Assembly (NCBI GenBank): GCA_023248635.1
Contig: JAHFED010000012.1
Location: 42,118 to 106,117 of the forward strand
DNA from: Myxococcales bacterium
GTDB taxonomy: Bacteria > Myxococcota > UBA727 > VGSZ01
Length of the DNA stretch: 64,000 nucleotides
Reading direction: 5' to 3'
Translations under genes and position numbers: made by a program
Shown: positions 8,642 through 45,895 of the stretch, piece by piece
Layout: every line of letters starts with the position of its first letter
Position numbering within the stretch: position 1 is the stretch's first letter
Notes under the pieces: model-generated
The model's database searches: none
Seen by the model: the letters and a program-made list of their open reading frames with translations, nothing else
Told to the model about the DNA's origin: nothing

Positions 8642-9694
8642 TCACGCCAGCAGCTCCCAGCTCAGTGGCGTTCCCGCCGGAGCATCTTGGTTGATGTGTT
8701 TTCCGAGCATGCGTTCGTAGTACTTCGGCGACAACCCAAATCCGGGCCGCACGATCCGCAGGTTCGTCTTCGTCAACAGGTCGCCCTTCTTGAGATCCTG
8801 AGCGATGTACAGCGTGCGGCGGAATACTCGGGATTTTTCTTCGGCTTTGGTGCCCCCATAGATGACGCGGCCCAAACCGAGCCACGCGCGCTCAGACTCG
8901 GTTCGCAAGAGCCGAAACTCCGCGGGCTCCAGCGAAAACGCGGAGTCGACGCCGCCATCCGCGCGGCGCAGCGTGAAGTGCTTTTCGATGACCGTGGCGC
9001 CAAGCGCAACGGCGGCGACGGCGACACCACAACCCATGGTGTGGTCCGAGAGTCCGACTTCGCAGCCAAATGCGTCGCGCATGTTGGGTATGGTTCGGAG
9101 GTTGCTGTTCTCCGGAGTCGCGGGATAGGTGCTCGTGCACTTCAGCAGCACGAGGTCATGGCAGCCGGCGTCCTGGGCGGTGCGCACCGCCTCGTCGATC
9201 TCCGCGGCAGTGGCCATGCCGGTCGAGATGATCATCGGTTTGCCGGTGCGCGCAACTCTGCGGATGAGGGGGAGATCCGTGTTTTCGAAAGAGGCAATCT
9301 TGTATGCGGGCACGGCAAGCGACTCGAGAAAATCGACGGCACTCTCATCGAAGGGCGAGCTGAAGCAGTGCAGCCCCAGTGCCTTCGCCTTCTCCATGAT
9401 CGGACGGTGCCACTCCCAAGGGGTATGCGCCTCGCGGTAGAGGTCGAACAACTGACGCCCTGACCATAAACTGTCGCCTTTCTCAATGACGAAACCAGAC
9501 GCTTTGAGGTCCAGCGTCATGGTTTCGGCGGTATAGGTCTGCAGTTTGATGGCGTCCGCACCGGAGTCGGCCGCAGCGTCGACGATCTGCAGCGCTCGCT
9601 CCAGCGACTGGTTGTGATTGCCGGACATCTCCGCAATCAAATACGGACGAACACTAGGCCCAATTTCGCGATCATGGATTTTCATTGTGCTCAC
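8642..9694 (-). CDS. pseI: Pseudaminic acid synthase (NeuB family)
   Basis: The 350-residue protein has the NeuB TIM barrel followed by an antifreeze-like SAF domain (about 285-345). It condenses phosphoenolpyruvate with 2,4-diacylamino-2,4,6-trideoxy-L-altrose to give pseudaminic acid. Family residues are clear: YLIAEMSGNHN, DAIKLQTYTAETMT, SLWSGRQLFDLY, STGMAT, LSDHTMG and VIEKHFTL. The SLWSG...LFDLY region favours PseI over sialic or legionaminic synthases. The start is GTG at 9694, overlapping the stop of the formyltransferase-like gene by GTGA; ATG at 9685 is an alternative. PseB, PseC and PseG lie upstream in the same operon. Confidence 0.93.
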   Translation of the reverse strand: MSTMKIHDREIGPSVRPYLIAEMSGNHNQSLERALQIVDAAADSGADAIKLQTYTAETMTLDLKASGFVIEKGDSLWSGRQLFDLYREAHTPWEWHRPIMEKAKALGLHCFSSPFDESAVDFLESLAVPAYKIASFENTDLPLIRRVARTGKPMIISTGMATAAEIDEAVRTAQDAGCHDLVLLKCTSTYPATPENSNLRTIPNMRDAFGCEVGLSDHTMGCGVAVAAVALGATVIEKHFTLRRADGGVDSAFSLEPAEFRLLRTESERAWLGLGRVIYGGTKAEEKSRVFRRTLYIAQDLKKGDLLTKTNLRIVRPGFGLSPKYYERMLGKHINQDAPAGTPLSWELLA

Positions 9695-25997: not shown

Positions 25998-26155
25998 GCG
26001 GCAGATAACGCCGATGTGTTCATTGCTTCAGGCGCGCCTGAAGTCTCGGCCCCGCTCATCCCGCATCGCCTTGATGTTCGACCGCGTTCTGAATTGGGAA
26101 AGACGCGGGATGATGCGCGTGAAGCGCGCCCGCGGAACGCGGAGTTGGTGGGGGG

Positions 26156-26185
26156 CCCCGCCGCCGGCTCCGCCGGCGTGGGGGG
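26156..26185. terminator. GC-rich hairpin between convergent genes
   Basis: Arms CGCCGGC (26162-26168) and GCCGGCG (26172-26178) form a perfect 7-bp stem with loop TCC, extended by flanking CCCC and GGGG. It lies between the arsC end (plus) and the small acidic-peptide gene end (minus), where a bidirectional terminator is expected. There is no T-run. Confidence 0.5.
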
Positions 26186-26220
26186 AGCGCTCCGCGGTCG
26201 AAGTTCAGCGAGATCGGGGA

Positions 26221-26364
26221 TCAGCCCCGGCTCAAGGCAGCCTGCTCGTCGTCGTCGACGTCTTCGACCTTCAGTCCGGCATCGCGCCAGCCTTGCACGA
26301 CCTCGTCGACCGCGGGCTCTGGCTCGAGGGGCTCGGGCGGCGTCGGCGTCTTGGGCTTGGTCAT
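26221..26364 (-). CDS. 47-residue acidic peptide coupled to NAT-like gene
   Basis: The frame ATG 26364 to TGA 26221 encodes a 47-residue peptide. Its start overlaps the stop of the preceding minus-strand gene by ATGA, a sign of real translation. The N-terminal third is Pro/Lys/Glu-rich (TKPKTPTPPEPLEPEP) and the rest is acidic, with GWRDAGLKVEDVDDDEQAAL. There is no signal peptide or cysteine. It could be an accessory or inhibitor, or a substrate peptide, of the larger protein; no family was recognised. It is followed by a GC-rich hairpin that would end the transcript. Confidence 0.5.
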   Translation of the reverse strand: MTKPKTPTPPEPLEPEPAVDEVVQGWRDAGLKVEDVDDDEQAALSRG

Positions 26365-27536
26365 GCGGCACCCCCTTCGAGAGCCAGGCGCAGGTTGTTC
26401 AATGTCGACGACGCGGCCACCAGCTCCTTCAACTCGGACCTCAGCTCAAAGACGTCGCGGCCCAAGAGCCGAGCGAAGGCGGGGGTCACCACAGCTTCGA
26501 CGTCGTCGCCGAAGCGCAGCTGCACTTTGTGTTGGCCCGCGGAGAAACGCAGCCGCTGGCGCTCGAAGTCGACGACGACGGAGGCCGTCACGGTCCCGTC
26601 CGCGGTGCGGGCACAGAGCGTGGCCCTGGGGTTCAGCGATGCATAGGTGCGCGTCAGCAGGACGTCGGCGTTGAGCAGCTCCTGCACGTGCAGCGTCGTC
26701 GTCTCGGTGCCGCCGCCGGCGGACAAGGGCTTGGGGCGAGCGCAGCTCACCGTCTGTCCATCGGCGGCGAGGGTGTAGGTCCAGCTTCGGCCGGTGTTGC
26801 CGAGGGGAACGGTGACGGGCTGGCTGGGCAAGAGCACCACCGGCTCGCCGATGTTGGCACCGGTGTCACAGAGCACCAGGCCACGCTGCCCTCCATCGAC
26901 GAAAGGGACCACGGCGGCGACGTGTCCGAAGGGTGGCTCGATGGACCGGCGCGTCCCGGGCGGGTGCTCGACGGGCACCAAGAACGCGGGCACGCCCTGA
27001 GAACGCAGGCGGGCGACGAGATCGAGGCAGTGGCCGACGCAATTGCTGCCCCCCTGGTGCCAAGCTCGAAGGGCGTCGGGGGCGAAGCTGCGAAAGGCGG
27101 CGACGAGTCTCTGGGTCGCTGCACCCGGCGCGACCGGCGCCGCACCCGCGCTCTGGACGTGGGCCTGCAGGTGGCGGGCGAGCTCGAGCACGAAAACGAA
27201 GGTGTCATAGCGCTGGTTCTCGACGTCACCCCGGGTGGTGCTTCGAAGTCGTCCAGCGAGCGCGGCCCCGCTGCTCTGCACCGCCATCCCCGCGAGAAGG
27301 GGCGAGAGCTGGGGAAGGGGCCAGCACCGATCGGCGACGGCGAGGGTGCGGGCCTCCACGCCTCGCGTCGAGGCCAAACCCAGCGGGGCCGCCTGCGTCG
27401 ACGCACTGGCCTTCGGCAAAGGCAGATCCTGCGCTGGGGGCTCCTGCGATGTCGACGACGTCACCGTCTCCTGCGCCAGCTGGGGCACCAGGGGCTGCGG
27501 GCTGGGCTTGGTGGCGGGGCGGGAGTCGATCTTCAC
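26361..27536 (-). CDS. NAT/transglutaminase-like protein of unknown function
   Basis: The 391-residue protein begins with a Pro/Ser/Thr-rich tail (about 1-60) and has no signal peptide. In the middle, residues Cys166 (GGSNCVGHC), His205 (PPFGHVAA) and Asp224 (LVLCDTGANIGEP) are spaced like the Cys-His-Asp triad of arylamine N-acetyltransferases and transglutaminase-like proteins, including the DxGxxxxxP run after Asp. The C-terminal half (about 240-391) has no recognised domain but looks beta-rich, as in the NAT third domain. The start is GTG 27536. It lies next to a 47-residue acidic peptide gene in ATGA overlap. The fold assignment is inference from motif spacing. Confidence 0.6.
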   Translation of the reverse strand: MKIDSRPATKPSPQPLVPQLAQETVTSSTSQEPPAQDLPLPKASASTQAAPLGLASTRGVEARTLAVADRCWPLPQLSPLLAGMAVQSSGAALAGRLRSTTRGDVENQRYDTFVFVLELARHLQAHVQSAGAAPVAPGAATQRLVAAFRSFAPDALRAWHQGGSNCVGHCLDLVARLRSQGVPAFLVPVEHPPGTRRSIEPPFGHVAAVVPFVDGGQRGLVLCDTGANIGEPVVLLPSQPVTVPLGNTGRSWTYTLAADGQTVSCARPKPLSAGGGTETTTLHVQELLNADVLLTRTYASLNPRATLCARTADGTVTASVVVDFERQRLRFSAGQHKVQLRFGDDVEAVVTPAFARLLGRDVFELRSELKELVAASSTLNNLRLALEGGAA

Positions 27537-27579: not shown

Positions 27580-29895
27580 CTATTTTTCGTGCATGACCCA
27601 TGTGCCATCCCAATCCGGCGCCGGAGGCTGGGCCTTCATCATCTCACACCGCTCCAGGTAGATCCCAGAGAGCTTATCGTGACTGTTCAGGGCGAGCGCT
27701 TCCTTAAAGGAAGAGATGGCGCGATTCCACTGAGAATCACGGTAGTGTCCCAAACCGCTCTTGAAGTGATGACACACCTCTGGAAGATTGGGAAAGGTCT
27801 CTTCGTTGTAGTAATCCATCACCTCGAAGATGGCGACGGGCTTGGTCTTGCCCTTCACCACCACCCGATCGATCTCGCGAATGCGGTAGGTGCCCTTGAG
27901 GCGTCGGCTGGTGTTCTCGCTGATGAGAATGTGCGCCGCATATTGCTTGCACGCGCTCTCGAGCCGGGCGGCAAGGTTCACCCCGTCGCCGATGAGGGTG
28001 TAGCCCATGCGCTTGGGCGACCCGATGTTGCCGGCCAGCACGTTGTCGGTGTTGAGCCCGATGCCGATGTCCAAGGGGCGTAATCCGCGCTCGACCCGAT
28101 CGCGGTTCCAGTTCGCCAAGTCGGTCATCATCGAGATGGCCGCCCGCACGCCCCGGTCTTCGTCGTCGTCGTGGGCGATGGGCATGCCAAAAGCGGCCAT
28201 GATGGCGTCGCCGATGAACTTGTCGAGCAGGCCGCCCTCGCGCTGAATCGACTCCATCATGATCGTGAAGTAGTCGTTCAACAGGTTGACCGTGCCCTGG
28301 GCGCCCAGCTCCTCCGAGATGGTGGTGAAGCTGCGAATGTCGGAGAAGAGCACCGTCGCCATGCCGGTCTTGCCGCCGAGGATGTCGCCGCCGTCGCCGA
28401 GGAGCTTGTCGGCGATGGAGGGATCGATGTAGCGCGACATCGTCGACTTCATCCGCTTCTCGCTCGAGATGTCGTCGATCATGAGCATGGTGCCCAGCGT
28501 TCTCTTCTCGCCGCTCTTGAGTGGGGCCACCGTTAGGTTCACCGAGATCTTCTTGCCGCCGTATTCGAGGTCGGCGTCGGTGACGGTGTCGGGCTCTTTG
28601 GTCTCTTCGACCTTGTGAATCAGATCCAAGACGAATGTATTGGGCTCGGCGAAGAAGTCCTTTGCCTTCTGATTGATGATCGATGACGCCGGCATTCTAA
28701 GGATGTTTTGTCCGGCGGCGTTGCAGGTGATGATCTTGCGGTCGTCGTCGAGTGTGATGACACCATTCGACATCGATTCCAGCATGCTCTCGTTGTAGTT
28801 CTTGATGTTCTGCACATCATTGAAGAGCTTGGCGTTCTCGAGCGCGATGGAGACCTGGGCGGTGAAGGCCCGCAGCCGGGATTCGTCTTCGGCGGTGAAA
28901 GGCCCGCCACGCTTGTTCAACACCTGGGTGACGCCGATGGTCTTGCCCTTCTTGTTGACGACGGGGACACACAAGATCGAACGCGTGAAGAAGCCGGTTT
29001 TCTTGTCGAAGGCGGGGTTGAAGCGCAGGTCAGCGTAGGCGTGGGGGATCTCCACCGACTTGCCTGAGGTGAAGACGGCGCCAGCGATGCCGAGGTGGTT
29101 GGGCAGACGGATGCCGCCTCTGACGTCGACGGCGCCGACCAGGGACCACAGCTCCTGAGTCTTTTCGTCGTTGAGGAAGAGGGTCGAGCGCTCGGCGTTG
29201 AGCATCTTGGTGGCTTCGTCCATCACCTTTTTGAGCAGGACGTTGATCTCGATCTCGCTGGTGACCTCGGTGACGACCTCGAGGAAGCGCAGCTCCTGCG
29301 CGCGGGTCTTGTTCATGCGCTCGATGACCTGCGCGCCTTGGAGCGTCATCGACGCCTGGGCACCCATGGCCTCGAGCAGCGAGAGCTCGTCGGCGTCGAA
29401 CTCGCCTTCCTTCTTGTTGAGCAGCTGGATGACGCCGATGATCTCCGACTTCACCGTGCGAATGGGTGCGCACAAGATGCTTCGGGTCAGAAAGCCGGTG
29501 CGCTGGTCAAAGACGGGATCGAAGTGCGGGTCGGCGTAGGCGTCGACGACGATGGCGCCCTGCCCGGTGGTGAACACGTGGCCGGCGACGCCCTTGGAGC
29601 TCTGCACGCGCAGCTCACGGCTCAGGTTTCCCTGGGCGACGCGCGAGTAGAGCTCACCGGTGGTGGGATCGTGGAGAAAGAGGGTGCCGCGCTCGGCGCC
29701 CAGCTGGGTGCTGACGATGTTGACCAGGGTCAGCAGCACGTCGTCGAGGGTCTCGAGCCCGGCGGTCTTTTGGTAGACGTCGAGCAGGATCTCGGCGCGC
29801 CGCAGTCGACGCCATCCATCAGCACCCAGCGAGGGGGGACCGGCGACGACGACGTCGGGGGGGCTGTTCAGGGCTGCGGGCTCAATTCCGGGCAT
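27580..29895 (-). CDS. GAF-GAF-PAS-class III nucleotide cyclase
   Basis: The 771-residue signalling protein has two GAF domains (about 40-190 and 205-355), a PAS-like domain (about 365-475), a class III adenylate/guanylate cyclase domain (about 500-695) and a TPR-like tail (about 705-750). Cyclase residues are intact: metal Asp in FSDIRSF, DKFIGDAIMAAFG, and the Asn and Arg in GDGVNLAARLE. It has no transmembrane segment, so it is a cytoplasmic sensor cyclase making cAMP or cGMP; the purine preference cannot be read reliably. ATG 29895 overlaps the upstream coiled-coil gene by 14 bases, so the two are probably co-translated. Confidence 0.9.
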   Translation of the reverse strand: MPGIEPAALNSPPDVVVAGPPSLGADGWRRLRRAEILLDVYQKTAGLETLDDVLLTLVNIVSTQLGAERGTLFLHDPTTGELYSRVAQGNLSRELRVQSSKGVAGHVFTTGQGAIVVDAYADPHFDPVFDQRTGFLTRSILCAPIRTVKSEIIGVIQLLNKKEGEFDADELSLLEAMGAQASMTLQGAQVIERMNKTRAQELRFLEVVTEVTSEIEINVLLKKVMDEATKMLNAERSTLFLNDEKTQELWSLVGAVDVRGGIRLPNHLGIAGAVFTSGKSVEIPHAYADLRFNPAFDKKTGFFTRSILCVPVVNKKGKTIGVTQVLNKRGGPFTAEDESRLRAFTAQVSIALENAKLFNDVQNIKNYNESMLESMSNGVITLDDDRKIITCNAAGQNILRMPASSIINQKAKDFFAEPNTFVLDLIHKVEETKEPDTVTDADLEYGGKKISVNLTVAPLKSGEKRTLGTMLMIDDISSEKRMKSTMSRYIDPSIADKLLGDGGDILGGKTGMATVLFSDIRSFTTISEELGAQGTVNLLNDYFTIMMESIQREGGLLDKFIGDAIMAAFGMPIAHDDDEDRGVRAAISMMTDLANWNRDRVERGLRPLDIGIGLNTDNVLAGNIGSPKRMGYTLIGDGVNLAARLESACKQYAAHILISENTSRRLKGTYRIREIDRVVVKGKTKPVAIFEVMDYYNEETFPNLPEVCHHFKSGLGHYRDSQWNRAISSFKEALALNSHDKLSGIYLERCEMMKAQPPAPDWDGTWVMHEK

Positions 29896-30616
29896 GGGCT
29901 TTCTCCAGCTCCTCACGAACGTTCCTGATGGTCGACTGCAGGTGGCCGGTCTCGGCCCGGTGGTACTGCGCGAGCGTCTCGAGCTGCTCGGCGTGCTGCC
30001 GCTGCAGCCGTTCGACGTCGTCGCGCAGCACCGCGATCGTGGCCTTGAGCTGGCGCGTTTCGTCGTCGGCCGCCCGCGTGACCTCGATGAGATCCTGGTT
30101 TTTGCCGTTGCGCATCTGCTCCAGCTGGGCCCGCAGCGCCTGAATGGTCTGGCGCAGCTCATCGTCGCCCGCCTTCGCCGCCGCGATGGCCCGAGCGGCC
30201 TCCTCGACGTGGATCGCACGCGTGCGTTCGAGCTCGTCGCGCAGCACAGCGATGGTCGTCTTGAGCAGCTCCATGTCGGCCGCCGCCGCCAACGCCGCGA
30301 CCTGGGCCCGGGCTTCGTGCTCGCCGCGCTGGGTCTCGAGTCGCTCGCGCACGCTGGCCACCGCCGACTGCAGGTACGTCACCTCGTCGGTGACAGCCTG
30401 CGCCGCAGCCTGGGCCCTCAGCTCGCCATCGCCCAGGCTGCGTTCGAGGGCCTCGCGCAGGGCGACGATGGTCCCCTCGAGGTGCGCCCGATCCGGCTCA
30501 GGATCGTCGGCCCTGGCCTCGTCGGCGCTGGGCGTGGGGTGCGAGCGAGACGAAACGTGGTTCAATCCAACACCCTCTCGCCAGGTCCCCCGCGTTCGCC
30601 GCGGGGGCTCGTGCAC
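29882..30616 (-). CDS. Coiled-coil protein upstream of cyclase
   Basis: The protein (up to 244 residues) is almost wholly heptad-repeat coiled coil from about residue 40 to the end, made of several related blocks: TIVALREALERS, TTIAVLRDELERT, QTIQALRAQLEQM and ATIAVLRDDVERL. It has no signal peptide, cysteine-rich part or enzyme motif. The blocks of about 35-40 residues indicate internal duplication. The start is uncertain: GTG 30616 leaves only 20 bases to the divergent peroxiredoxin start, so a later start is likely. The overlap with the cyclase gene suggests a scaffold or regulator for it. Confidence 0.72.
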   Translation of the reverse strand: MHEPPRRTRGTWREGVGLNHVSSRSHPTPSADEARADDPEPDRAHLEGTIVALREALERSLGDGELRAQAAAQAVTDEVTYLQSAVASVRERLETQRGEHEARAQVAALAAAADMELLKTTIAVLRDELERTRAIHVEEAARAIAAAKAGDDELRQTIQALRAQLEQMRNGKNQDLIEVTRAADDETRQLKATIAVLRDDVERLQRQHAEQLETLAQYHRAETGHLQSTIRNVREELEKAHARN

Positions 30617-31295: not shown

Positions 31296-33212
31296 TCAGT
31301 TCTCGGCGAGCACGATCAACTTGTCGCCCGCCGCAAAGGTGATCGGCTGCGATTTCTTGGGGCTGACAACGACGCCGTAGGACTTGTCGGCGGCGGCAGC
31401 GTCGGCGGCAACTTTGTAGCCGAAGGCGACCTCACCCTTTTGGGCGGCGGCGTTGATCAACGTCGAGAAGGTGACCGGGATGCCGGGCTTCACGTACTCG
31501 TTGACGGGCTTCAAGTAGACCTCGCTGCCCTCGGGCGAGAAGAGATCCTTGAACACGATGTTGAGGTCCTTGTTCTCGGAGATCTGGCTCATCATCAAGC
31601 TCACCAGCCGATCGCTGACGATGAAGTCGTCGGCGTTGGTGACTTCGGCGAGGCGGCGGTTGGTGATGTCGAGCATCTCGCTGACGACGCTGATGCGCAC
31701 GCCGGTCTTGCTGCCGATGTCGCGCAGGTGGAGCAAGGTGATCAGGGTCTTGGCGTCGGCTTTCTCGACGGGGAGCTCGTCGGAGTAGCAAAGGACGATG
31801 ACGTGCTGGTAGGTGCCCACCTGGAGCGCGTCGAGGACACTGCGGTCGGTGGTGTCGTCCTTCTGGAAGGTCAACTTCTGCTTCGTGAGGTTGCCGCACT
31901 CGTGCTCGATGCTGGCCTCGGTGCCCTCGCTGTCGGAGACGATGTGCACCGCCGAACCGGCCGGCACGTAATTGTCGAGCTCGTTGACGACGCTGGGGCC
32001 GCGCCAATTCCAACCCAAGATCAAGGAACGCTCCGGCTTCGGCGGCGGCGGCGTCACCAAGGCAATGAGGCTGGCATCGGGCTTGGCCACGCTTCCGGAG
32101 ATGACGATGGAGTCGTCGTCTTCGGCGATCACGATCAGCCGATCACCCGCGTTGATCAGCGTGTTCATCGGCGGGTTGAGGATGGGGCGACCGTTCTGGG
32201 GACGGACGCCGATCACCGCAGAGTCTTCGTGGGCGAGCAAGCACTCGGCGAATTTGCGGTTGGTGAGCTGGGGCTCTTCTTTGAAATAGATTTCGACGCC
32301 GCCAAAGTCGAGCAATTCTGTATAGACGACCGACAGACCGGACTGACGGCAGGTCTGGGCCATGATGCGAGCGATGAGGTCGCCGACGAGGACCAGCTCG
32401 ACCTCGTCCTTGCCGATCATCTCGGCGACCTGCACGTTTTTTGGATCGCGAATCTCGGCAATCAGGTGATACTTGCCCTGCTTGCGCGACGGCGAATTGG
32501 TGACCGCCAGCAGGGCCTTGATGACGTCGACGTCGGGGTCTTCGCTCTTGCCTCCTTCTTCGGCGTCGGGGGCCAGCACCAGGATCGATCGGGCGCTGTC
32601 GACGCCGACGATGGCGAGGTCGTGGATTTCGACCGGACTGCCGGTGCGACAGATGATGCGGGTCGTTTTGAAGTCCGAGATTTTGTCGCGGATCTCGTCT
32701 TCCATCTCGACCTTGTCCTTGGCGCCGAGGATCACGATGGCGGCGCGCTTGCGCGAGCTGTTGGCCTCGATGAGCTCGGTGAGGATCGGAAAGACCTGCT
32801 CGGACCACCCGAGGATCACGGTGTGGTCGACCTCGACGACGCGGGATCGGCCCTTGCGCAGCTGTTCGATCTGGGCTTCGAGGCCGGCGCTCAGCACGCC
32901 GATCAACGTCGACATCACGAAGATGCCGAGCAGCGTGACCAGCAAGGTGATGATGCGGAAAGGCCAGCCGGCGTCGTCGGCCATGTTGCCGGCGTCGAAG
33001 GTGCGCATCAGCGACATCCAGGCCGCCTCGATGAACGAGAGGGCTTCGGCGTCGCCCTCGTTCTTGATGTGCGTGATCGCGATGATGAGCGCGAAGATGG
33101 TGATGGCGCCGCCGGTGACGAGCGTCAGCAGTCCGATGAGCGCGATGGTGCCCTTGGCCAGGATGTTGTCGAAGGCGTAGCGCAGGCGCTCGCGGGTGCT
33201 GAATTGGGTCAC
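31296..33212 (-). CDS. CASTOR/POLLUX-like ion channel with RCK domains
   Basis: The 638-residue protein resembles bacterial homologues of the plant CASTOR/POLLUX channels. Transmembrane helices lie at about 22-48 and 85-110, with a pore region between them (EAAWMSLMRTFDAGNMADDAG). Two RCK-like Rossmann modules follow (about 125-370 and 395-635), beginning DHTVILGWSEQVFPIL and RSLILGWNWRGPSVV. It probably conducts K+ or another cation under ligand control. The chosen start is GTG 33212 behind GAGGTGAAAG; the reading frame stays open upstream, but those codons resemble no protein. It is followed by a hairpin. Confidence 0.85.
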   Translation of the reverse strand: MTQFSTRERLRYAFDNILAKGTIALIGLLTLVTGGAITIFALIIAITHIKNEGDAEALSFIEAAWMSLMRTFDAGNMADDAGWPFRIITLLVTLLGIFVMSTLIGVLSAGLEAQIEQLRKGRSRVVEVDHTVILGWSEQVFPILTELIEANSSRKRAAIVILGAKDKVEMEDEIRDKISDFKTTRIICRTGSPVEIHDLAIVGVDSARSILVLAPDAEEGGKSEDPDVDVIKALLAVTNSPSRKQGKYHLIAEIRDPKNVQVAEMIGKDEVELVLVGDLIARIMAQTCRQSGLSVVYTELLDFGGVEIYFKEEPQLTNRKFAECLLAHEDSAVIGVRPQNGRPILNPPMNTLINAGDRLIVIAEDDDSIVISGSVAKPDASLIALVTPPPPKPERSLILGWNWRGPSVVNELDNYVPAGSAVHIVSDSEGTEASIEHECGNLTKQKLTFQKDDTTDRSVLDALQVGTYQHVIVLCYSDELPVEKADAKTLITLLHLRDIGSKTGVRISVVSEMLDITNRRLAEVTNADDFIVSDRLVSLMMSQISENKDLNIVFKDLFSPEGSEVYLKPVNEYVKPGIPVTFSTLINAAAQKGEVAFGYKVAADAAAADKSYGVVVSPKKSQPITFAAGDKLIVLAEN

Positions 33213-33322: not shown

Positions 33323-34558
33323 TCAGCCCTTCACGCAAACCACCTGGTGGAGGGTGTGGACGACGTCGACGAGGTCGGCCTGGGCCTTCATCACCGCATC
33401 GATGTCCTTGTAGGCAGCCGGACTTTCGTCGACGACGTCTTCGTCCTTGCGGCACTCGATGCCTGCGGTGGCCAGGGCGTGGTCGGCGACGCTGATGCGC
33501 TTCTTCGCCTCCGTGCGGGACATCACCCGGCCGGCGCCGTGGCTGCACGAATGGAAGCTGTCGACGTTGCCCTTGCCGCGCACGATGAAGGAGCGCGCCC
33601 CCATGGAGCCGGGGATGATGCCGAGGTCGCCTTCGCGGGCCCGCACCGCGCCCTTGCGTGTCACCAGCACGTCGCGCCCGTGGTGGTGCTCCCGGGCCAC
33701 GTAGTTGTGGTGACAATTCACGGCCATCGACGTCGCCAGGAAAGGCGGGATCCCTTTGCACGACGACACCGCCTTGATCACGGCCTGCATCATCAGCTCG
33801 CGGTTGCAGGCCGCGAACTCCTGGGCCCAGGAAACGGCTTCGACGTAGTCGTCGAAGTGGGCCGTGCCTTCGGGAAAATACGCGAGGTTCTGATCGGGAA
33901 GGTTGATGAACCAGGAGCGCATGTCCTCCTTCGCCATCTCGATGAAGACCGAGCCGATCTTGTTGCCGACGCCGCGCGATCCCGAGTGCAGCATGAACCA
34001 GACGCGCTCCTCCTCGTCGAGACAGACCTCGATGAAGTGGTTGCCGGTTCCCAGCGTGCCCAGGTGGGTCACGTGGTTCGACTGCCCGATGCGCGGGTGC
34101 TTGGCGACGATGGCCTCGAAGCGCGTCGACAACGACGACCAAGCTTGGGCGATTGCTGGGGGAGCGTCGTCGGACCACGAGCCGGTGTCGAAGGTGTGGC
34201 CCGAGCGTCCATGGGGCACCGCCTTTTCGATGGCCGCGCGCACGGGAGCCAGGGTCTCAGGCAGATCCGACGACGACAGCGACGTGCGCACCGCCATCAT
34301 GCCGCAGCCGATGTCGACGCCGACGGCCGCGGGGATCACGGCTCCGATGGTGGGAATGACGCTGCCGACGGTGGCGCCGATGCCGACATGCACATCGGGC
34401 ATCACCGCGATGTGACCGTGGATGAAGGGCAGGCGGGCCGCGTTTTTGAGCTGCTCGAGCGCGCGCTCATCCATCGGAACGCCGCGCGTCCACGACTTGA
34501 TCAGCCCCCCGCCCTCGGTGCGATGGACCTCGAAGGGATCAGGCATCGACGACGACAT
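33323..34558 (-). CDS. rtcB: RNA-splicing ligase RtcB
   Basis: The 411-residue protein is an RtcB-family RNA ligase joining 2',3'-cyclic phosphate and 5'-OH ends with GTP and Mn2+. Seen are the metal motif VGVDIGCGM (Asp82, Cys85), GTGNHFIEV, HSGSRGVGN, NCHHNYVAREH and the guanylated-His motif HSCSHGAGRVMSR. The length fits the short bacterial branch. The start is ATG 34558; ATG 34546 is an alternative. No rtcA, rtcR or archease is adjacent. Confidence 0.93.
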   Translation of the reverse strand: MSSSMPDPFEVHRTEGGGLIKSWTRGVPMDERALEQLKNAARLPFIHGHIAVMPDVHVGIGATVGSVIPTIGAVIPAAVGVDIGCGMMAVRTSLSSSDLPETLAPVRAAIEKAVPHGRSGHTFDTGSWSDDAPPAIAQAWSSLSTRFEAIVAKHPRIGQSNHVTHLGTLGTGNHFIEVCLDEEERVWFMLHSGSRGVGNKIGSVFIEMAKEDMRSWFINLPDQNLAYFPEGTAHFDDYVEAVSWAQEFAACNRELMMQAVIKAVSSCKGIPPFLATSMAVNCHHNYVAREHHHGRDVLVTRKGAVRAREGDLGIIPGSMGARSFIVRGKGNVDSFHSCSHGAGRVMSRTEAKKRISVADHALATAGIECRKDEDVVDESPAAYKDIDAVMKAQADLVDVVHTLHQVVCVKG

Positions 34559-45076: not shown

Positions 45077-45895
45077 ATGACAGCCCCGCTTTTCCACGAT
45101 GCGACGACGGTGAAGGTACGGGCGCTCTACCTGGGCGAACGCATCGACGTGCGCGCCCTCGAGGCCGCCAGCCGCATCACCCCGGTGCTGCCTTTGGCCA
45201 TCCAGGTGGGCCAACATGGTGCCGCCGTCATCTTTCGCTACGGCGTGGTGGTGTTTTTCCACGTGTCACCGCTGGAAGAGGTGGGGCTCATCGAGAGCCT
45301 GAAGAAGCTCGTCGGCGAGAGCTTTGCCCGGCCGGAGCTCGAGGAGATCGAGATCCGCGTCCTGCCCGATCGCAACGACGGGCGCCAAGACCTCGTCGAA
45401 GGCAACGTCCTCACGGTCAGCGAGCTCTCGGTCGAGCGTGCCCAGCTCATCGCTGAGATCCTGGCCCGCACCGTGGCCCTCGCCCGCTACGAGTCGGTGG
45501 TGAAGGAGTCCTGGTCCGCCATCGAGAACTGGGCGCAGGCACTGCAGCAGGGAAAGAGCGAAAACGCGCTGGCAAAGCAGCTCCTGAAAAATCTCGGGTC
45601 GACCATCGTGATTCAATCATCAATGACCGGCCGCATCGAGATCGACGACAAACCAGAGATCCTGTGGGACCGCCCCGATCTCGAGCGCATCTACCTCCGC
45701 CTCGAGGACGAGTACGAGCTGAAAGAGCGAGACAAGGCCCTGGAGCGCAAGCTCGCCCTGATTTCGTCGACGGCGGAGATGATGTTGAATCTTGTTGACA
45801 ATCGCCATGCACACCGCCTTGAATGGTACATCATTGGCTTGATTGTGCTGGAGATTGCAATCTCTTTGGCCACCATCGGCTTCGGCGGGCACTGA
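45077..45895 (+). CDS. RMD1/DUF155 family membrane protein
   Basis: The 272-residue protein matches the RMD1 (DUF155) family: VRALYLGERIDV near the start, VIFRYGVVVFFHV, LARYESVVKESWSAIEN, LWDRPDLERIYLRLEDEYELKERDKALERKL and a C-terminal transmembrane helix (about 248-268). Yeast and human members are mitochondrial scaffold proteins; bacterial members are little studied. It starts at ATG 45077, 66 bases from the divergent kinase start. Confidence 0.85.
   Translation: MTAPLFHDATTVKVRALYLGERIDVRALEAASRITPVLPLAIQVGQHGAAVIFRYGVVVFFHVSPLEEVGLIESLKKLVGESFARPELEEIEIRVLPDRNDGRQDLVEGNVLTVSELSVERAQLIAEILARTVALARYESVVKESWSAIENWAQALQQGKSENALAKQLLKNLGSTIVIQSSMTGRIEIDDKPEILWDRPDLERIYLRLEDEYELKERDKALERKLALISSTAEMMLNLVDNRHAHRLEWYIIGLIVLEIAISLATIGFGGH

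Follow-up and report, generated by a model that had tools for sequence, protein, structure and literature searches.

A divergent transglutaminase-like protein and an overlapping gene for an acidic peptide, predicted as a co-translated pair in a Myxococcales genome

Taking all lines of evidence together, we consider it fairly probable that two overlapping genes of a Myxococcales bacterium encode an enzyme of the transglutaminase-like (papain-like) superfamily that is cytoplasmic and restricted to its lineage, together with a real, co-translated peptide whose likeliest functional role is that of a partner or regulator of this enzyme. Both genes lie on the minus strand of the window, which is the whole stretch of 64,000 nucleotides of DNA analyzed here. 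The first (positions 26361 to 27536, GTG start) encodes a divergent protein of 391 amino acids with likeness to transglutaminases and arylamine N-acetyltransferases (NATs), and the second (26221 to 26364, ATG start) encodes an acidic, proline-rich peptide of 47 amino acids, which overlaps the stop codon of the enzyme gene within an ATGA. The first-pass annotation of this DNA had reported a 47-residue peptide gene overlapping the stop of a NAT/transglutaminase-like protein by ATGA, and both open reading frames (ORFs) are present as described. The acidic character that it gave the peptide is also borne out, both by composition (12 D/E versus 5 K/R) and by a computed pI of 4.13.

The enzyme starts with approximately 95 residues rich in proline, serine, and alanine, followed by a putative catalytic domain that holds Cys166, His205, and Asp224, spaced 39 and 19 residues apart. 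Counting from the GTG at 27536, the codons of these residues are located on the minus strand at 27039 to 27041 (Cys166, the putative nucleophile), 26922 to 26924 (His205), and 26865 to 26867 (Asp224). If the protein works like other members of the superfamily, the nucleophile would be Cys166, activated by His205 and oriented by Asp224. Cys166 may then form a thioester with an acyl or a glutaminyl/peptidyl substrate that would be passed on to an amine or to water. At 0.24 bits per codon, the coding score of the enzyme frame exceeds that of the other five frames (runner-up, 0.05), and the last 30 codons of the enzyme frame score 0.27, indicating that the frame is coding up to its stop. The gene is present as a single copy in its own genome.

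In a simple codon-based gene map, the enzyme and peptide genes are the last two of four consecutive genes on the minus strand. Upstream of the enzyme gene, at a distance of 43 nt, lies a gene with an ATG start (27580 to 29895, minus strand) for a protein of 771 amino acids with the Pfam domain order GAF-GAF-PAS-class III cyclase. The start of this gene is overlapped by a gene for a coiled-coil protein (29882 to 30565, minus strand), which is likely the first of the run; this overlap is 14 nt long and could reflect two coupled genes or a single protein split by a frameshift. A search for consensus sigma-70 promoters between 25500 and 28000 was negative, and the enzyme and peptide genes probably share the transcript of the cyclase gene. 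Given this position on the same strand after the cyclase gene and the probably shared transcript, the enzyme may act under the GAF/PAS cyclase signaling unit. Downstream, the run faces a convergent gene for a low-molecular-weight phosphatase/arsenate reductase-like protein. Between this gene and the peptide gene we observed a perfect 18-bp palindrome, CTTCAGGCGCGCCTGAAG, at 26026 to 26043, possibly a terminator shared by the two, as well as a very GC-rich stretch (80% GC) at approximately 26101 to 26200. A shared N-terminal leader, as might be expected if the enzyme were a secreted effector, was also considered and discarded: the start pattern had 25 matches in the own genome and 20 in a reversed control and thus gave no sign of such a leader.

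At the junction of the two genes, CTCGAAGGGGGTGCCGCATGACC, the TGA of the enzyme and the ATG of the peptide share the ATGA, and a Shine-Dalgarno-like AAGGGGG (26371 to 26377, minus strand) is found 6 nt upstream of the peptide ATG. The codon usage of the peptide gene scores 0.47 bits per codon, a value that only 3 of 395 same-length, wrong-frame pieces of neighboring genes reach and that lies well within the range of true-frame pieces, 45 of 79 of which score at or below it. The codon table behind this value was trained on seven neighbors, one of which included approximately 320 nt upstream of its later-assigned start; with a table retrained on ten genes, the two halves of the peptide gene score 0.45 and 0.55. 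Upstream of its own ATG, the peptide frame scores -0.36 over 27 codons and looks non-coding. Given the Shine-Dalgarno-like site, the match to the codon usage of the genome, and the switch of frames at the junction, the peptide ORF is probably a real gene. The predicted product is likely a co-translated small protein, which the ATGA junction would allow to be produced in step with the enzyme.

The overlap itself is ordinary for this genome, since 11 of the 31 same-strand neighbor pairs in the gene map of the window overlap, 5 of them by exactly 4 nt (a count that omits one doubtful 45-amino-acid ORF of the map). The peptide is tied to the enzyme by position alone, and we consider it about as probable as a partner role that the peptide gene is a real small gene riding at the end of the operon as a functionally unrelated passenger. 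The frequency of 4-nt overlaps is in line with such a passenger, as is the fact that no homologue showing both genes traveling together was found. What speaks against it is the compact run of four genes on one strand, together with the expectation that coupling would set the ratio of both products.

The searches behind this statement yielded no homologue of the enzyme or of the peptide in any of the collections covered, and hence no related pair. For the enzyme, a protein search of 58 relatives gave matches in two genomes, one of which was its own, and a search of 195 genomes of the phylum at E values up to 0.1 gave matches in 26, again including its own; neither contained a credible homologue. 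The same holds for the 30 genomes from which other loci derive (1 match at E up to 0.01), for 396 genomes from the phylum of genome G208 (E up to 0.01, 7 matches), and for 377 genomes from the phylum of G196 (E up to 0.001, 1 match). A further 398 genomes from the phylum of G223 gave 0 matches at E up to 0.001, an empty answer that shows nothing, as this search had no known positive. The candidates among the matches listed were short, in the wrong frame, or compositional, and the three putative catalytic residues were aligned in none of them. Six loci (L002, L003, L019, L020, L022, and L023) were re-examined as possible enzyme homologues and rejected, L002 being without a match.

Pattern scans led to the same result. 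Among genome contigs, 83 stretches fitted the degenerate pattern FGHV...D-x-G....EP of the enzyme; by reading frame, local alignment score, and sequence, 0 of them were relatives, although distant ones may escape such a single pattern. In the same search for enzyme homologues, peptide patterns of exact short stretches matched 173 places, with 0 confirmed, and distant relatives may escape here as well. Viral contigs contributed 18 stretches, 0 of them confirmed, and no relatives were found in plasmids and phages. A search with the peptide in the 195 genomes at E values up to 1 gave matches in 123; the best besides its own copy had an E value of 0.007, and most lay inside long frames, so that these weak matches are apparently compositional. 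The neighborhood offered no further handle: the best matches of the cyclase in two same-genus genomes and one same-family genome share 38 to 40% identity over the catalytic end only, and thus no orthologous neighborhood was seen in which the pair could be checked. Among the titles listed in literature searches, some of which targeted enzymes with a coupled small protein and myxobacterial effectors, none described the pair, which does not prove its absence from print.

Rather less probable is that there is no separate peptide product at all, either because the ORF is untranslated or because it is the tail of the enzyme, detached by a frameshift or an assembly error. Length is uninformative in this GC-rich window, where 49.5% of 1463 ATG-started ORFs have at least 47 codons, and where 186 of 381 ORFs that start within an ATGA reach 47 codons; chance ORFs of this size are therefore common. 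In addition, the genome assembly is incomplete (135 contigs), and the data are compatible with a frameshift located right at the junction. These points are countered by the codon usage, which so few wrong-frame pieces match, by the Shine-Dalgarno-like site, and by the non-coding look of the upstream frame. In particular, since the coding signal of the enzyme frame persists to the stop codon and the peptide frame is non-coding upstream of its ATG, a separate small gene is likelier than a frameshifted tail.

If the peptide is produced, our leading, still tentative, guess is that it binds the enzyme as a partner or regulates it. This guess is prompted by the coupling of the genes, by the opposite charge of the products (computed pI of 8.83 for the enzyme versus 4.13 for the peptide), and by the example of vasohibin, which is transglutaminase-like and, according to PMC4866520, is helped in its release by a small protein that binds it. 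In the description given there, the vasohibin triad C169-H204-S221 has a spacing of 35 and 17 residues, close to the 39 and 19 residues seen here. The two differ in the third residue, which is Ser/Thr in vasohibins and Asp224 in our enzyme, so that the Cys-His-Ser/Thr arrangement is absent. A full bacterial counterpart of vasohibin and its small binding protein, in which a lineage-specific enzyme would need or modify its coupled acidic peptide under the control of the GAF/PAS cyclase of the same operon, appears unlikely on balance. The two-gene system proposed in the first-pass annotation may nevertheless exist, and should the peptide be a dedicated partner or substrate, the pair would represent a compact bacterial enzyme-peptide module and a simple model for the control of transglutaminase-like enzymes by small proteins.

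The next functional candidate is that the peptide is a substrate, which the enzyme would trim, crosslink, or acylate. Lasso peptide systems provide the precedent, as there a transglutaminase-like leader peptidase (the B protein) acts on a short precursor, and a transglutaminase-like enzyme lies beside a short ORF, as at this locus. A substrate would be in keeping with the size of 47 amino acids, with a gene that adjoins and is coupled to that of a transglutaminase-like enzyme, and with the presence of Gln and Lys residues in the peptide. However, among the 18 neighbors scanned with Pfam there was no asparagine-synthetase-like cyclase of the kind found in lasso systems, no transporter, and no RiPP recognition element. 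The peptide shows no evident leader-like motif or typical precursor motif, and no conserved pair was found, so that we consider a substrate role improbable and retain the partner or regulator role as the preferred one.

The assignment of the enzyme to a superfamily had to be made with custom profiles. It has no match at E values up to 10 in Pfam, NCBIfam, or PADLOC and none among PDB sequences; the PHROGs collection gave one weak match each for the enzyme (E value of 0.22) and the peptide (0.059), both of unknown function. Its locus is absent from the matches of the transglutaminase-core family (PF01841) in its own genome, and the NAT family (PF00797) matches neither the enzyme nor any other place in its own genome or in two same-genus genomes. 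Of 30 PF01841 loci of the own genome and of relatives, 23 showed a Cys-His-Asp pattern and were used to build a transglutaminase-core profile, while 7 were dropped, and this selection by pattern is a point against the assignment; a NAT profile was built from 30 PF00797 loci of the phylum. Residues 96 to 391 of the enzyme aligned with the 23-sequence transglutaminase-core profile in hhalign with a score of 34.0 and a P value of 1.5e-4, at a probability of just 51.7%. None of 300 shuffled sequences, whose best score was 26.2, and none of 87 ORFs of the window (best, 20.3) attained this score, and 10 of 30 genuine NATs tested on the same profile, which truly belong to the superfamily, score between 30.2 and 40.1. 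In the alignment, C166, H205, and D224 fall on the consensus C, H, and D columns. The order of the three residues is that of PF01841, and the stretch 'NCVGHCLDLVARLRSQGVPA' of the enzyme is similar to the helix after the catalytic Cys of that family; the enzyme differs from it by GGSNC in place of G-x-C, by its long N-terminal extension, and by an extra C-terminal part. Against the NAT profile, the enzyme scored 22.6 (P value of 0.022), and 2 of 300 shuffles scored as high; the NAT profile is less diverse, which makes this the weaker test.

Predicted structures point in the direction of NATs, albeit roughly. Because no homologues were available, AlphaFold2 was run twice on the single sequence, with no alignment, which resulted in poor models: the first (residues 59 to 391) has a mean pLDDT of 43 and a pTM of 0.37, and the second (residues 100 to 310) has a mean pLDDT of 50 and a pTM of 0.50. 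In both low-confidence models, a helix begins at Cys166, and His205 and Asp224 lie on or next to the strands that follow, an order of elements that fits the superfamily. In Foldseek, matches 1, 2, 4, 6 to 10, and 12 to 14 of the first model are NATs, none with an E value below 0.001, and the second model is led by chains of the RNA-binding proteins MRP1/MRP2, with a NAT third. Structural re-ranking placed a NAT on top for the first model (Z score of 5.3, rmsd of 5.4, 154 residues), a position that it shared with unrelated matches of short length. For the second model, NAT-family chains filled the top 13 rows, with 122 to 146 residues aligned at an rmsd of 5.0 to 5.9 and Z scores of 5.0 to 6.5, a range that possibly means a mere common arrangement. 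The unrelated rows after them align approximately 49 residues, and the best NAT reaches a Z score of up to 6.5 (rmsd of 5.2, 135 residues aligned), again for a low-confidence model. No transglutaminase chain is among the re-ranking matches listed for either model, which excludes nothing. Thus, it is the NAT fold, including that of amide synthases such as GdmF, that the rough models resemble best, and the Cys-His-Asp spacing is similar as well.

That the enzyme is a true NAT of unusual sequence, using acetyl-CoA, would account for the NAT chains at the top of both re-rankings and for the spacings of 39 and 19 residues, but it is poorly compatible with the sequence. The motifs used to annotate NATs, as given in PMC11213898, are VPFENL, RGGYC, THRL, and VDV. 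All four are missing from the enzyme, which has no PFEN and reads QGGSNC, FGHV, and LCDTG instead. Together with the lack of PF00797 matches in the enzyme, its genome, and its same-genus relatives, and with a NAT profile score that shuffles can equal, this makes a true NAT quite improbable, and NAT membership is not supported by sequence. The reading of Cys166, His205, and Asp224 as a catalytic triad, proposed in the first-pass annotation from their NAT-like spacing, thus fared better than the family name attached to it: the residues sit on the catalytic columns of the transglutaminase-core profile, and the rough models are NAT-like, whereas NAT as a family label is not supported. Based on the profile match, the position of the three residues, and the absent NAT motifs, the analysis supports placing the enzyme in the transglutaminase-like superfamily as a divergent member, rather than calling it a proven NAT.

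Finally, a degenerate or spurious large ORF with a triad arranged by chance, which the lack of homologues in the collections searched and the single copy in the genome might suggest, is very unlikely in view of a coding score that tops the six frames and a transglutaminase-core match far above that of shuffles. The case also matters for the annotation of such orphans, as none of the family libraries used captured this protein, which is of considerable size and apparently catalytic.

Several other genes of the window deserve mention in their own right. A gene on the minus strand (31296 to 33212) encodes, according to Pfam, a Castor/Pollux-type ion channel with RCK/TrkA-like domains, a type of channel better known from plants; it is adjoined by a gene for an RtcB RNA ligase (33323 to 34558, minus strand). 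On the plus strand, positions 45077 to 45895 encode a protein of the DUF155/RMND1 family, which is best known from mitochondria. Lastly, a long minus-strand run of sugar-biosynthesis-like genes (187 to 20342), including genes for NeuB (8642 to 9628), GNAT acetyltransferases, and an FkbH-like protein and adjoined by a polysaccharide export gene, looks like a nonulosonic acid cluster.
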